In this document: piece after piece, positions 464-11,391 of the stretch
How positions within the stretch are numbered: the stretch's first letter is position 1
Layout: each line of letters begins with the position of its first letter
The notes under the pieces: model-generated
Databases searched by the model: none
What the model saw: the letters and a program-made list of their open reading frames with translations, nothing else
What the model was told of the DNA's origin: nothing
DNA from: Asaia bogorensis
GTDB taxonomy: Bacteria; Pseudomonadota; Alphaproteobacteria; Acetobacterales; Acetobacteraceae
Assembly (NCBI GenBank): GCA_945873195.1
Contig: CAMCDA010000017.1
Span: 1 to 39,077 of the forward strand
Reading direction: 5' to 3'
Length of the DNA: 39,077 nt
Made by a program: the position numbers and the translations under genes

Positions 464-1228
464 CTAACCGTCCCAGACGCTGCTTGGCATGGGCAGGTTG
501 GCAAAATCCGAATCGGACAACGGGCCATCCGGGACGATTCCGGCCATCCCCAGCAGCATGTGCCATTGCCGGACGTGCTGGCCAGAGTGCCAGGTTGCCC
601 GCTCCAGGATCTCATGCTGGGTCTGTTCGCCGTAGTAGGTCTGGACCTTCTGGGTGCCGGACCGGTCGGCCTGCGCCGCCCACCATCCGACCAGGTCCTG
701 GCGCACGGTTTCACCGTAGGCGGCGATCGAGGCGAAGCTGTCCATGTCGTCGGTGGGGCCGACGGCGAGGGCCTCGTACGTCAGTTCGCCACCGCGGGCG
801 ACCGAGAGGAACACCTCCGCGATGCGGAATATGTGGTGGGACAGGATGCGGTAGCTGCGCGGCCGGTTCGGGACCTCGGTCGCCAGTTCGCTGTCCGGCA
901 TCTGCGGAACGATCCGCGCCGCCGTGGCCAGGAACAGGTCCAGGCGCCGGACAAGCTGGTCCGGGGACAGGACGGGGCCTGTTGCTTCGTTCAGTCCGAG
1001 GAACGTGACGACCGATGAAATGTTCTGCGCGAACACCCATTCGTCGCCGCGTGACAGGACGGGGATCGAACGCGCGCCGAGGCGTCGCAGTTCGGCCAAT
1101 CCATTGGCGGCCTCGAGAACGTTGACCGACTCAAACCCGATCGCACGGACCGAGAGAAACTCCTTGAGTTTCAGGCAACTCGTTCATCCAGGCTGCCAGA
1201 ACACCTTGAGCGGTTCGACCGCGTCCAT
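464..1228 (-). CDS. Glutaredoxin-DinB fusion, candidate UxxC selenoprotein (in-frame TGA at codon 15)
   Basis: Reading from the ATG at 1228, which has a GGAG ribosome site about 7 nt upstream, the frame is MDAVEPLKVFWQPG, then TGA (1184-1186), then TSCLKLKEFL, and stays open to a TAG, 254 codons in all. Residues 6-75 form a glutaredoxin/NrdH-like fold with [TGA15]-T-S-C18 exactly where related proteins carry CxxC, and cis-Pro56 in SIPV. Residues about 88-235 are a DinB-like four-helix domain with possible metal ligands H131/H132, H214 and H218. The TGA replaces the attacking cysteine of the redox site. Two readings are possible: selenocysteine, supported by the hairpin 11 nt downstream, or a nonsense mutation. 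A restart at the TTG at 1099 would give 211 residues without the redox motif. The gene lies 52 nt after the extradiol dioxygenase gene in the same operon. Confidence that this is a real gene is high; that TGA is read as Sec is moderate. Confidence 0.7.
1156..1186 (-). promoter_or_regulatory. Candidate bacterial SECIS element with its UGA codon
   Basis: On the minus strand the TGA (1184-1186) is followed by 11 nt and then a perfect hairpin GAAACTC-AAG-GAGTTTC (1172 down to 1156), 7 bp with a 3-nt loop, 17 nt in all. The well-studied E. coli fdhF element also has a 17-nt upper stem-loop 11 nt after its UGA. Just outside, CGAG and CTCG can form a short lower stem. A weak point is the loop: known elements usually carry a G among the first loop bases that SelB contacts, and here the G is third. 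A competing hairpin, GAGTT with AACTC, is also possible. No selA, selB, selD or tRNA-Sec gene is in the window. Confidence 0.5.
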
Positions 1229-1280
1229 GGTAGTCTCCGACATTCTTCGATTGAATCAGTAGGCCGGTGGGCCGTCCGGG

Positions 1281-2288
1281 TCAATCGGCGTTTCCAGACT
1301 TGACGTTGTCCCACCAGGGGCAGGTGCCGGTCAGGGTTTCGAAATTGCCGGGCATGACCTGCACCGGCATGCGTTCGCCGTTCTGGGCGGCCTTCAGACG
1401 CAGGTCGCGGGCCTGGGCGCGTTGCTCCTCGGACATCCAGACGCGGTCGTGGCCCCAGAGGCTGGGACCGACGGTGCATTCCGTGGCGTTCCAGGTGCCG
1501 GGGGTCACTTCCTTGCCGCCCCAGCCGTATTCCATCAGGAAGCCGGAGGGTGTTTTCAGGTAGTACGACAACACCGCGTCGTTCGGGTGGCGGCCCAACG
1601 TGGTGGCGATGCGATCGGGATCGCCGAGGGCGATGTCGTAGCCCTGGCCGACATCGTCCATTGAATACAGTTCCACCATCAGATGATGCAGGTCCTGACG
1701 GCCGGTCTCGATCAGCGCCAGGCTGTGGTGGCGCGAGTTCGCGTGCATGAAAAACGCACGGAACGGGGTGGTGATGTAGTCACTGACGCCGAAGCCCAGC
1801 GTGTCTCGATAGAAGCTCAGCAGGTCGTCGATGTTCTTCACGTGGAACACCGCGTGCCCCATGCCGAGCGGACCGGTGCGAAAGCCGGAGATCGTGCGGC
1901 CGGGCTTGAAGGCGGCGTCGGCCAGCATCGGACCGTGGAAGGCCTCCAGCCTGTTGCCGGCGGGATCGGCGAAGCTGATCAGGCCGGTGACGAAGCGCTG
2001 TGCGGCGAGCGCCGCGGGCTCCGCCCGGACCTTGACTCCGGCGGTTTCCAGCGTCGCGGCGAGGGTTTGCAGGGCGGCGGCGTCCGCGACCTCCCACCCG
2101 AAGAAGCGTTCACCGTCGGCCAGGGAATGGTCGATCACCAGCCGTTGCTTGCGGTCATCCATGCGGAAGGCGCGCTGGGCGTTGCCATGGTCGACGGGCT
2201 GCATGCCCAGCCAATTTGTGGCGAAGTCGGACCATTCTTCGAGGTTGGATGCGCCGATCCCGACATAGCCCAATGATTGCACCAGCAT
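1281..2288 (-). CDS. Type I extradiol ring-cleavage dioxygenase (BphC-like, VOC fold)
   Basis: The 335-residue protein has two vicinal-oxygen-chelate modules, about 5-120 and 140-275, like 2,3-dihydroxybiphenyl 1,2-dioxygenase, an Fe(II) enzyme that opens catechols next to the diol. By comparison with BphC the metal ligands are H145 (GMGHAVF), H202 (DLHHLMVE) and E253 (FLMEYGWGG), and H188 (SRHHSLAL) is the active-site acid/base. The LSYYLKTPSGF run before E253 is the family signature. The ATG at 2288 is preceded by GGAGG about 8 nt upstream; longer forms lack the fold. The true substrate is unknown, since no other gene of an aromatic meta-cleavage pathway is adjacent. It sits between the pyruvyl transferase fusion (58 nt upstream) and the glutaredoxin-DinB gene (52 nt downstream). 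Confidence 0.9.
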   Translation of the reverse strand: MLVQSLGYVGIGASNLEEWSDFATNWLGMQPVDHGNAQRAFRMDDRKQRLVIDHSLADGERFFGWEVADAAALQTLAATLETAGVKVRAEPAALAAQRFVTGLISFADPAGNRLEAFHGPMLADAAFKPGRTISGFRTGPLGMGHAVFHVKNIDDLLSFYRDTLGFGVSDYITTPFRAFFMHANSRHHSLALIETGRQDLHHLMVELYSMDDVGQGYDIALGDPDRIATTLGRHPNDAVLSYYLKTPSGFLMEYGWGGKEVTPGTWNATECTVGPSLWGHDRVWMSEEQRAQARDLRLKAAQNGERMPVQVMPGNFETLTGTCPWWDNVKSGNAD

Positions 2289-8728: not shown

Positions 8729-9169
8729 TCAGGACTTCGACTTCAGCAAGTCCCTGATCTCGGTCAGCAACACCTCCGACTTCGGCGGAGCGGGCGGGGC
8801 CGCCGCCTTTTCTTCCTTCGCCTTCAGCCGGGTCAGCAGCTTCACCACCCAGAACACCGCGAAGCTGACGATCACGAACTGGATGATCGCGTTCAGGAAC
8901 AATCCGACATTCACCGTCGGCGCGCCGGCCTTCCTGGCATCGTCGAGCGTGGCATAGCTCTGGCTGTTCAACGCGACGAACACGTTCGAGAAATCGATGC
9001 CGCCGGTCAGAACACCGATGAACGGATTGAACACATCCTTCACCAGACTGCCGACGACGCCCGTAAAGGCGGCGCCAATGATGATGCCGACAGCCAGATC
9101 GACCACGTTGCCGCGCATGATGAAGGTGCGGAACTCTGATATCCACGAAGGCGTGGCCGGGAGTGCCAT
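8729..9169 (-). CDS. mscL: Large-conductance mechanosensitive channel
   Basis: The 146-residue protein matches MscL throughout. It has the N-terminal amphipathic helix and FRTFIMRGNVVDLAVGIIIGAAF (residues 13-35, the start of TM1 with the pore glycines and alanines), a periplasmic loop (about 50-90), TM2 (about 93-111) and a charged cytoplasmic C-terminal helix with an Ala/Pro linker (about 115-146). It forms a homopentameric inner-membrane pore that opens under high membrane tension on osmotic down-shock. The ATG at 9169 follows AGGAGA about 6 nt upstream; longer forms add unrelated residues. The GST gene ends 107 nt upstream, so mscL may have its own promoter. Confidence 0.95.
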   Translation of the reverse strand: MALPATPSWISEFRTFIMRGNVVDLAVGIIIGAAFTGVVGSLVKDVFNPFIGVLTGGIDFSNVFVALNSQSYATLDDARKAGAPTVNVGLFLNAIIQFVIVSFAVFWVVKLLTRLKAKEEKAAAPPAPPKSEVLLTEIRDLLKSKS

Positions 9170-9276
9170 GACGTGTCTCCTATCGATGATTGTTTCAGGC
9201 AGGCCGCGTACCCGGAACAACCACGGCACGCAACGCCGGAGGTATGTTTCCCGGCGTGACGCCTCCGCCCGCCGTC

Positions 9277-9963
9277 CTACGCGGTTCGAGCGTTCCGCCC
9301 CAGGCCGCCGTACAGGTCGAGCAACCGCTCCATCCACGCCGCCACCGGATCATCGGTGGCCAGCAGGGCGAACCGACTGACGCAGCGCGGCCACATCAGG
9401 GTCCCGCCCAGAATGAAATCGGCATAACTCGGCGCCACCCCGCCCAGCCATTGCTGCCGCCGCAAGGTAAGGCGTACCGGGGTCAAAACCTCCCGGAACG
9501 CGGGCAATCGCGCCTCCCGCCCTTCCTGGACGTCCTCCAGGGTACGGCGAAACCGAGCCTCCCGGCTCTCACGGAAATAGGCGCGGTCCTTCTCGGCAAT
9601 CACATCAAACAGGTCGCGGATGATGAAGGGCGCGATCGCCCCCAGCAGCACTGAATCCGCCCAGGCATTGATGAACCGCGCATGCGCCCGCCCCCCCGTG
9701 CCACCAAACAGGCTGGGCATTGGGCACTGCTCTTCCAGATATTCCGCGATGGCCCAACTGTCGGAGACGACGCGGTCATCGTCCTTGATGACCGGCACAC
9801 GATCCTGGCCGGAGAACGCGATCTCGGGCTTGTCAGTGAACCGCCACGGGATGGTTTCGACCGGCATGCCCTTGTGGGCCAGGGCAAAGCGGGTGCGCCA
9901 GCAATAGGGGCTGAACCGGAGTTCCGGGTCAGCCCCCGCCAGATCATGCATGATGATGCTCAT
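9277..9963 (-). CDS. Glutathione S-transferase family protein
   Basis: The 228-residue protein has an N-terminal thioredoxin-like domain (residues about 3-82) with the active-site region ELRFSPYCWRTRFAL (S18, C21), the cis-Pro motif RVPVIKDDD and SDSWAIAEYLE. An all-helical C-terminal domain follows (about 92-220). This is the cytosolic GST layout; the SPYCWR site suggests a Ser/Cys-type bacterial enzyme. The substrate is unknown, though detoxification or aromatic catabolism would fit the neighbourhood. The ATG at 9963 is chosen because upstream residues are low-complexity Arg/Gly sequence unlike any GST. Confidence 0.85.
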   Translation of the reverse strand: MSIIMHDLAGADPELRFSPYCWRTRFALAHKGMPVETIPWRFTDKPEIAFSGQDRVPVIKDDDRVVSDSWAIAEYLEEQCPMPSLFGGTGGRAHARFINAWADSVLLGAIAPFIIRDLFDVIAEKDRAYFRESREARFRRTLEDVQEGREARLPAFREVLTPVRLTLRRQQWLGGVAPSYADFILGGTLMWPRCVSRFALLATDDPVAAWMERLLDLYGGLGRNARTA

Positions 9964-10047
9964 GCCCAGCAGTCTGGACGGTCGGCCAAGCCTACGTCCA
10001 GACCCCATGGCAGACCCCAGGGTAATGGCACTTGGCCGCTACCCGTC

Positions 10048-10070
10048 ATGGGCGGGCCTGACCCGCCCAT
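10048..10070. repeat. Intergenic palindrome (REP-like)
   Basis: ATGGGCGGG-CCTGA-CCCGCCCAT is a perfect 9-bp hairpin in the 285-bp gap between the GST and LLM genes, preceded by CCCGTC. Hairpins of this kind (CGTCATGGGCGGGCCTGACCC style) are common extragenic repeats in alphaproteobacteria. Confidence 0.6.
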
Positions 10071-10129
10071 CGCCAAGCACGCAGGCGTTTGAAATCATAC
10101 GCAAACACTATCAGCGGGGTCCCTGGCGA

Positions 10130-10150
10130 TGGCCGGGTCAAGCCCGGCCA
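10130..10150. repeat. Intergenic palindrome, related to the preceding one
   Basis: TGGCCGGG-TCAAG-CCCGGCCA is a perfect 8-bp hairpin 60 bp from the previous one, with CGACGGG just after it, so the two form a REP-like pair in opposite orientation. The rest of this 285-bp gap shows no gene. Confidence 0.6.
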
Positions 10151-10248
10151 CGACGGGGAGGCGCCGTCCCCGAGTCAAGAACGGTTGCCCTGGGCAAATC
10201 CCTTGGCGCGCCCAATGGTAGCCCCCCGGGGGCAGCCCCCAACCTCGA

Positions 10249-11391
10249 TCACGCCGGCGCGAAGACGTTCTCCTCTTGCAGGTTCTGCGCCGGGCGAAGG
10301 ATCGCCGGCGGCTTCGCGAACCGGGCATCATGCTGCAGCACCGGCATCACCGTGTCGGCGAACATCCGCATGTTCGTTTCGGATTCATGATGCGGCATCC
10401 CACCGAAGGAAAACTCGGTGATCAGGTGATCGAGACCCGTCAAGGCCTGCAACTCCTCCAGCTTCTGAATGCAGTCATCCGGCGTGCCGACCAACTGGAT
10501 GCTGACATAGAAATCGGTGGCCTTCGCGCGTCGCACCGGGTCCTTCATCTTGGCATAGGTCACGCCGACCTTGTCGTAGGCCTCATAGCCCTTCACGTTG
10601 TTCAGGTGCCCATCCGAGAAATGGTAGTGGTTATCAATCGAATCCCACTTCCGCCCCAGATACTCGATCGCCCTGTCCTCCGCCTCGGCCCTGCTCTCAG
10701 CCACCGAAACATTCGTCAGCACCATGGGCGGGCGCGGCGTGAAGCCCTCGGCCGCCGCCACCGCGTTGAAGCGATGCACATCCGCCGCCGCCTTCGGCCA
10801 TTCGTTCTGCATGATCACCAGCATCGAGAACCCAAGACGCGCCATCACGTCCACCGATTCCGGACTGACCGCTGTGCCGTAGAAACGGCGCTCCGGGTGC
10901 GAAATCGGGCGCGGGCGGATCGAGGTGCGGGGGATCTGGAAATGCTCGCCCTTGAACTCGAAGCTTTCCTGCGACAGCGCCATCTTGATGATCTGAGCGG
11001 ACTCGATGAAGCGTGGGCGGGCCTCGCCCTGGTCGATGCGGAAACCTTCGTATTCGACGGTGGCGGCACCGCGGCCGAAGCCGAACACGCAGCGCCCGCC
11101 GCACATGATGTCGAGCAGCGCGATCTCCTCGGCCACCCGGATCGGATCATGCCAGGGCAGCACGATCACCGCCGTGCCCAGCGTGATGCGGCTGGTGCGG
11201 CCGGCGTAATACGCCAGCAACTGGGTCGGCGACGGCGACATCGCGTAGCCGGTGAAGTGATGCTCCAGCGCGAACAGCGAGTCGAAGCCCAGCGGTTCGG
11301 CCAGGTCACCCAGGGCCATGTGCTCCGACACAACCGCGACATCCGGGCGGCCTGCCTGGGACAACATATTGAGCGCGACGCCGACTTTCAT
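10249..11391 (-). CDS. LLM-class flavin-dependent oxidoreductase (luciferase-like)
   Basis: The 380-residue protein is a luciferase-like monooxygenase TIM barrel. Evidence: the N-terminal strand MKVGVALNM, LGFDSLFALEHHF (about 34-46), TSRITLGTAVIVLPWHDPIRVAEEIALLD (about 66-95), GGRCVFGFGRGA and SPESVDVMARLGF. Family members use reduced FMN or F420; FMN is likelier in this phylum. The ATG at 11391 follows AAGGAAA about 8 nt upstream. The substrate is unknown. A near-consensus FNR/FixK box lies 155 bp upstream, and the Bug-type receptor gene ends 203 bp upstream on the same strand. Confidence 0.88.
   Translation of the reverse strand: MKVGVALNMLSQAGRPDVAVVSEHMALGDLAEPLGFDSLFALEHHFTGYAMSPSPTQLLAYYAGRTSRITLGTAVIVLPWHDPIRVAEEIALLDIMCGGRCVFGFGRGAATVEYEGFRIDQGEARPRFIESAQIIKMALSQESFEFKGEHFQIPRTSIRPRPISHPERRFYGTAVSPESVDVMARLGFSMLVIMQNEWPKAAADVHRFNAVAAAEGFTPRPPMVLTNVSVAESRAEAEDRAIEYLGRKWDSIDNHYHFSDGHLNNVKGYEAYDKVGVTYAKMKDPVRRAKATDFYVSIQLVGTPDDCIQKLEELQALTGLDHLITEFSFGGMPHHESETNMRMFADTVMPVLQHDARFAKPPAILRPAQNLQEENVFAPA

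Follow-up and report, generated by a model that had tools for sequence, protein, structure and literature searches.

The glutaredoxin–DinB fusion gene in the window, the 39,077-nucleotide stretch of Asaia bogorensis DNA analysed here, is very probably a genuine selenoprotein gene, in which the UGA at codon 15 is decoded by means of an in-frame RNA element to give a product that combines a glutaredoxin with a DinB domain. Decoding of codon 15 as selenocysteine (Sec) is almost certain on the comparative evidence, and we infer that selenium is inserted at this position. The gene lies on the minus strand and has 254 codons, with 14 codons that begin with an ATG, the TGA at codon 15, 239 further codons and a TAG stop, and its translated frame reads MDAVEPLKVFWQPG-TGA-TSCLKLKEFL...VWDG-stop (Table 1). 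The initial annotation had placed a frame at positions 464 to 1,228 without stating its strand. The frame exists there and is on the minus strand; the plus-strand reading of 464–1228 gives no sensible product and was rejected. Homologues have Cys at the position of the TGA in the alignment, in agreement with the earlier placement of the TGA on the first Cys of a CxxC motif. The upstream ATG and GGAG and the 239 open and conserved codons after the TGA were likewise described correctly, and GGA precedes ATG in six of six aligned sequences. The genome contains one copy of the gene. The proposal of the initial annotation that this gene is a candidate new selenoprotein is supported by the Sec machinery of the genome, the TGA shared with relatives, the hairpins following the TGA, conservation at synonymous positions and the co-occurrence of the TGA with SelA.

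Table 1. Features of the glutaredoxin–DinB gene and its surroundings, in window coordinates
Feature	Position	Strand	Remark
GGAG ribosome-binding site	1235..1238	-	6 nt before ATG
Predicted selenoprotein gene, glutaredoxin–DinB fusion	464..1228	-	254 residues, predicted Sec at 15, stop TAG 464–466
In-frame TGA, predicted Sec codon, first position of UxxC	1184..1186	-	Same TGA in relatives
Resolving Cys codon (Cys18) of UxxC	1175..1177	-	Cys in 40/40 Sec and 38/38 Cys forms
Hairpin 1 of proposed SECIS, GAAACUC-AAG-GAGUUUC	1156..1172	-	From folding; fixed register weak
Hairpin 2 of proposed SECIS	1136..1154	-	7 bp, apical loop CGUGC 1143–1147, 36 nt after UGA
Glutaredoxin domain, residues 8–62	1043..1207	-	Pfam match; thioredoxin-type strand/helix order in model
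DinB / S-transferase-like domain, residues 105–221	566..916	-	DinB_2 match; invariant His132, His214, His218
Extradiol-dioxygenase-like (BphC/VOC) upstream neighbour	1281..2288	-	52 nt away; context, outside the recoding

The TGA at codon 15 is common to the relatives that hold the gene. A first search of 59 genomes including that of A. bogorensis found the gene in 26, namely the own genome, 24 of the 32 same-genus relatives searched and a member of another family, G045, which also carries a glutaredoxin–DinB gene with TGA. All of the 24 same-genus relatives with the gene have the TGA (25 loci, one genome having the gene on two fragments), and so the outcome that the initial annotation had regarded as damaging, close relatives that all carry Cys, is not what the genus presents. 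A class-wide search of 385 members including the own genome, drawn evenly from a larger group, found the gene in 32. Among the 31 others, 18 have TGA, G045 being one of them, and 13 have no stop at this site; 11 of these 13 have TGC or TGT, and for two (G115 and G401) only the absence of a stop is established. The TGA is therefore present in 18 genomes of other families and, together with the same-genus relatives, in 42 other assemblies. G340 is counted as a TGA genome despite a second copy; its TGA copy (L115) is on contig C24 and the copy without an inner stop is on contig C25.

A homologue search of named genomes with the TGA aligned to Cys, the check that the initial annotation had proposed, returned 31 loci, of which 27 are Cys forms, mostly from Burkholderiales by record title, and four are TGA forms. 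These four (L003–L006) are probably the same as G014, G022, G032 and G004 and were not counted as further genomes. L005 is recorded as Nitrosovibrio sp., yet its TGA gene is of the same-genus type; the record is probably a misnamed MAG. The stretches gathered for comparison comprise 44 TGA and 38 Cys forms. Thirteen plasmid records from Rhizobium, Caballeronia, Variovorax and Roseomonas encode homologues with less than 60% identity, and at the plasmid loci L147, L148 and L149 a single annotated frame covers the full match; these are probably Cys forms.

The genome of A. bogorensis, whose assembly is 97.8% complete in 400 contigs, encodes all of the Sec machinery named in the initial annotation: selA (E 8e-153), selB (390 bits against a cut-off of 242), selD (290 bits against 125) and a tRNA-Sec with anticodon tca. 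By its gene content, the organism is able to make selenocysteine. The tRNA-Sec gene is found at 2660–2755 of L001 on contig C131, some 20 nt beyond the end of the selA frame at 2640, and a tRNA-Sec was located in 23 of the 28 other selA loci scanned. Since selB is on a different contig from selA and tRNA-Sec, the tRNA gene is not nested in selB, an arrangement reported for other Alphaproteobacteria (PMC8124441). The frames adjoining selA, selB and selD were listed and provided no lead. A search with RF00031 found no match in the own genome, a result that is uninformative because none of 14 control genomes matched either. Five matches to TIGR01553, the formate dehydrogenase (FDH) alpha model, were found in the own genome, none of them over the cut-off and none with an inner stop.

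Across the class, the TGA form is associated with SelA, which is present in 17 of the 18 TGA genomes but in only three of the 13 without the stop (31 class genomes; Fisher p = 6e-5, relatedness uncorrected). The association is weak inside the genus: of the 25 genomes with the gene, own included, 22 have SelA, versus five of the eight without it (p = 0.14), and 24 have SelA or SelB, versus five of eight (p = 0.036); in these counts the weak partial SelA matches of G024 are scored as absent, and SelB was searched in the own and 14 chosen genomes. Five same-genus genomes have SelA, and the glutaredoxin–DinB gene was not found in them, and neither SelA nor SelB was found in G006, G008 and G025, which are without the gene. 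G004 and G027 have the TGA and no SelA match, with two SelB matches each; G024, which is 68% complete, has two weak partial SelA matches and no SelB match; and no SelA or SelB was found in the 77% complete G045, which has the TGA.

The sequence following the UGA resembles a bacterial SECIS element placed within the coding frame. A gapless alignment of the 52 nt starting at the UGA was made from 38 Cys forms and 30 distinct Sec forms, the latter obtained from the 44 stretches by leaving out identical 52-mers and L058, which is too short; related rows among the aligned forms are not independent. RNAalifold folds the Sec set into one hairpin at columns 33–51 (hairpin 2) and finds no hairpin in the 38 Cys forms. 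The five core pairs of hairpin 2 are formed in 150 of 150 cells in the 30 Sec forms, compared with 49.5% of 190 cells in the 38 Cys forms. Three of these five pairs vary (G-C/G-U, G-U/A-U and U-A to C-G), and only one of them, U-A to C-G, changes on both sides, in one sequence. Two outer pairs change on both sides in three and one sequences, respectively, and are broken in five and two. The loop is C-G-U-G-N among the Sec forms. The bSECIS model calls for a loop of 3–9 nt with G in the first two positions, an upper stem of 4–16 bp, a distance of 16–37 nt from the UGA and an MFE of -7.5 kcal/mol or below (PMC13188914). Hairpin 2 of the window agrees with the model in its loop of 5 nt, its stem of 7 bp, its G at loop position 2 and its spacing of 36 nt. 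With regard to the energy rule it is borderline: the MFE is -14.1 for the 52 nt of the window and averages -7.75 for hairpin 2 alone, with a range from -10.1 to -3.7 over the 30 sequences.

Hairpin 1, which lies between the UGA and hairpin 2, is less uniform. It has 7 bp within the genus and differs in sequence and register elsewhere, so that a fixed register pairs 80.7% of 150 cells across the 30 Sec forms; the TGA form of G045 (L056) has a different hairpin 1 sequence. Nucleotides 13–33 fold at -4 kcal/mol or better in 24 of 30 Sec forms versus none of 38 Cys forms, and over the wider segment of nucleotides 4–34 there is little difference between the sets (27 of 30 versus 27 of 38). Hairpin 1 was also considered as the SelB site and set aside, as its AAR loop is without the G of the model and its register shifts between lineages.

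Among 29 Sec genes, hairpin 2 is more stable than 95% of synonymous recodings in 19, versus two of 38 Cys genes, and both hairpins together in 21, versus one of 38 (one of the 30 Sec forms being too short for this test). Codon identity at unchanged residues over the first 16 codons after the UGA is 0.70 in Sec forms and 0.49 in Cys forms, and in later bins it is 0.45–0.55 and 0.46–0.51, respectively (40 full-length Sec and 38 Cys forms). The 52 nt of the window taken alone fold no better than shuffled sequences (z -0.32), and a search of window positions 1100–1260 against Rfam found no match. A pattern describing the sequence from the UGA to the loop has 336 matches in the own genome with at most one mismatch, compared with 218 for a reversed control. 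Ten matches are exact, one of which is the glutaredoxin–DinB gene, and three others resemble, by eye, an SNF2-helicase motif read in another frame.

Beyond the active site, the protein itself appears to have been altered by the RNA element. The 40 Sec forms have Leu21 in 31, Ser26 in 39, Val27 in 31 and Arg28 in 40, and the 38 Cys forms have Thr21 in 28, Thr26 in 23, Lys27 in 15 and Gln28 in 21. Arg28 occurs in one of the 38 Cys forms, encoded by CGC. In the Sec forms its codon is CGT in 40 of 40, compared with 91 of 623 Arg codons downstream. Such residue shifts and a fixed CGT at Arg28 are predicted by a SECIS embedded in the codons and are hard to explain otherwise. On a tree built from 78 full-length proteins, a minimum of three changes accounts for the distribution of the Sec/Cys label, and the starred branches force at least two. 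This tree is rooted at the midpoint, so that the direction of change is not settled, and some joins involve long branches; since the RNA-shaped residues were kept, it favours grouping of the Sec forms.

The full-length protein is predicted to consist of two domains. The Pfam glutaredoxin model PF00462 matches residues 8–62 (E 2.1e-6; 28.2 bits against a gathering threshold of 22.9) and is matched at E 0.01 or better by all 20 aligned members, own included. The DinB_2 model PF12867 matches residues 105–221 of the own protein with 20.3 bits, which is under the cut-off of 24.8, and 17 of the 20 aligned members, own included, match it at E 0.01 or better, the best at 1.4e-9. An AlphaFold2 model built from the 20-row alignment (mean pLDDT 93.1, pTM 0.89) has a thioredoxin-type order of strands and helices followed by long helices. 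A profile search of the PDB gives a glutaredoxin at E 5.8e-11 over positions 3–80, with no better than E 0.027 for a DinB-like protein. Cys18 of the UxxC motif is invariant throughout the Sec and Cys forms, and all 78 proteins, Cys forms included, have His132, His214 and His218. The metal site of BstA is likewise described with three histidines (PMC5815605), and the invariance of those found here suggests a metal-dependent catalytic site.

Since Cys18 and the three histidines are invariant, we infer that the protein may act as a thiol transferase or isomerase that depends on a metal and carries a Sec redox centre of its own. The thiol-transferase role is held tentatively, at somewhat short of an even chance. 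A doubtful but serious alternative accepts the Sec and denies that the partner domain is an S-transferase, making the protein a plain redox relay or a selenium- or metal-binding sensor. The DinB/STL group takes in very diverse members on the basis of their fold (PMC5815605), and the own DinB_2 score below the cut-off also speaks for this alternative, as do neighbouring genes such as those for MsrA, gamma-glutamyltranspeptidase and glutathione S-transferase, each found beside the gene in one genome (G087, G239 and G129, respectively), and hydantoinase/oxoprolinase (G009 and G026). The invariance of the histidines even in the Cys forms argues against it, in favour of a catalytic metal site.

These neighbours all lie beside TGA forms, together with a chromate transporter, an FMN oxidoreductase and others, and the neighbours of Cys forms include TauD dioxygenases, a TctC receptor and an EthD domain, among others. 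The neighbours provide a hint of thiol and catabolic chemistry. The scan covered 20 frames of 63 located, four of the 20 matching nothing. Among the close same-strand neighbours listed, the BphC/VOC gene of the window is found again only beside L003, a 97%-identical relative. No conserved operon was found with a crude longest-frame gene caller, which may miss small or overlapped genes: neighbour clusters reach at most three of 31 regions, and the neighbourhood therefore constrains the function only weakly. At L150 (G087), the TGA gene is about 30 nt after a same-strand frame, 8832–10493, with a peptide methionine sulfoxide reductase domain (PF01625). The reduction of a Sec MsrA by a Sec glutaredoxin is the subject of a paper cited in PMC13188914.

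Other readings of codon 15 itself fare much worse than selenocysteine. It is very improbable that an altered genetic code or near-cognate readthrough places Trp or Cys at the UGA without selenium. The existence of Cys forms implies that Cys would be functional at this site, and it is generally known that Cys can be inserted at Sec codons when selenium is low. Three observations speak against this reading. TGA ends 30 of the 48 open frames of at least 250 codons in the window (a six-frame count, spurious frames included), so that it seems to serve this organism as a normal stop codon; the TGA form is associated with SelA; and a recoding element is conserved downstream. It is even less probable that the TGA is a true stop, leaving a 14-residue leader and a DinB-only protein restarted downstream, for example at an internal TTG at 1099 that would give 211 residues. 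Standard annotation would stop at the TGA, which counts in favour of this alternative. A true stop would, however, cut through a glutaredoxin motif in 42 other genomes, the FWQP before the TGA and the S-C-L after it are invariant in both Sec and Cys forms of the 20-row alignment, and the hairpins after the site are kept in the Sec and not in the Cys forms. A sequencing error, for which the initial annotation had expected reads with TGC or TGT, or a decaying pseudogene in a single assembly might be suspected from the fragmented source, and is refuted by the same TGA in all 24 same-genus and 18 other-family genomes and by the open and conserved remainder of the frame, leaving it a negligible probability.

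The initial annotation knew of no glutaredoxin–DinB selenoprotein, and none was found in the literature searched, which mostly excludes subscription journals; nor did the literature searched contain a selenoprotein of the DinB / S-transferase-like superfamily. The papers naming selenoprotein and DinB together deal, by title, with mirror-image PCR and with E. coli under mercury. Sec glutaredoxins themselves are listed in reviews (PMC13188914, PMC9312934) and were reported from marine metagenomes (PMC2398784, PMC1088965), where the GOS class 'Grx-like' has 42 sequences and could contain relatives of the glutaredoxin–DinB family. The listed Sec glutaredoxin (Grx, PF00462) likewise has Sec first in the UxxC of a glutaredoxin domain; it is listed by its Grx domain alone, whereas here a DinB domain is fused to it and the hosts are Alphaproteobacteria. 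The word DinB is absent from the main text of PMC13188914, and PMC9312934 is not among the papers naming selenoprotein and DinB together. The accessible part of the deep-Sep report (PMC12013277) contains no glutaredoxin or DinB.

Three further groups of proteins share one part of the arrangement each. The Uxx-star families (NF041212, NF041211, NF047338) and the HUGP/GUXX-star fusion (NF045501) also have a small glutaredoxin-like domain, some with Sec and one as a fusion, but their models score far under the NCBIfam cut-offs here (e.g., 22.6 versus 66 bits and 13.2 versus 325), and no NCBIfam model exceeds its cut-off for the glutaredoxin–DinB protein. The bacillithiol, mycothiol and glutathione transferases of the DinB / S-transferase-like superfamily have the DinB_2 match and three invariant histidines in common with it; unlike in the fusion found here, glutaredoxin is a word absent from PMC5815605. 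FDH is described as the primary role of Sec in Alphaproteobacteria (PMC8124441), and FDH-O as the sole selenoprotein reported for those that decode Sec (PMC1794560). FDH-O uses the same UGA recoding in an unrelated protein, which has no TIGR01553 match over the cut-off in the present genome.

These observations lead to a probable mechanism for a selenoprotein made from this gene. SelB carrying Sec-tRNA-Sec would decode the UGA at codon 15, directed by the in-frame RNA element within the 48 nt after the UGA, with its hairpins at nucleotides 15–31 and 33–51 counted from the U of the UGA. The GU-containing loop of hairpin 2 is the likely SelB site, and hairpin 1 may, as a further guess, shorten the effective distance from the UGA to this loop from 36 to about 19 nt. 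The resulting 254-residue product would have a glutaredoxin-fold Sec-x-x-Cys centre followed by a DinB helical domain with an intact His3 site. The DinB domain may catalyse metal-dependent transfer or isomerisation of a thiol, probably glutathione, and the Sec centre may activate the thiol or reduce the mixed disulfide that results.

Taken jointly, these elements would describe a widespread alphaproteobacterial family whose members unite a Sec glutaredoxin and a metal-dependent thiol transferase in one working enzyme, made by means of a two-hairpin SECIS; all of this holding together is unlikely, if still worth stating. Within such a joint reading, the Sec would regenerate or activate the thiol for the metal site, and the first hairpin of the SECIS would shorten the gap between the UGA and the SelB-binding loop. 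The gene would also be a main reason why the genome of A. bogorensis keeps its Sec machinery, because no match to TIGR01553 exceeds the cut-off there.

Annotation that ends a frame at the UGA easily overlooks selenoproteins. The glutaredoxin–DinB proteins appear to be a redox-metal family that exists in two modes, Sec and Cys, so that the Cys versions may serve as natural controls. In this gene an RNA element also appears to have rewritten an enzyme, and thiol-transfer chemistry would gain a new arrangement with a DinB enzyme that carries a Sec redox centre of its own.
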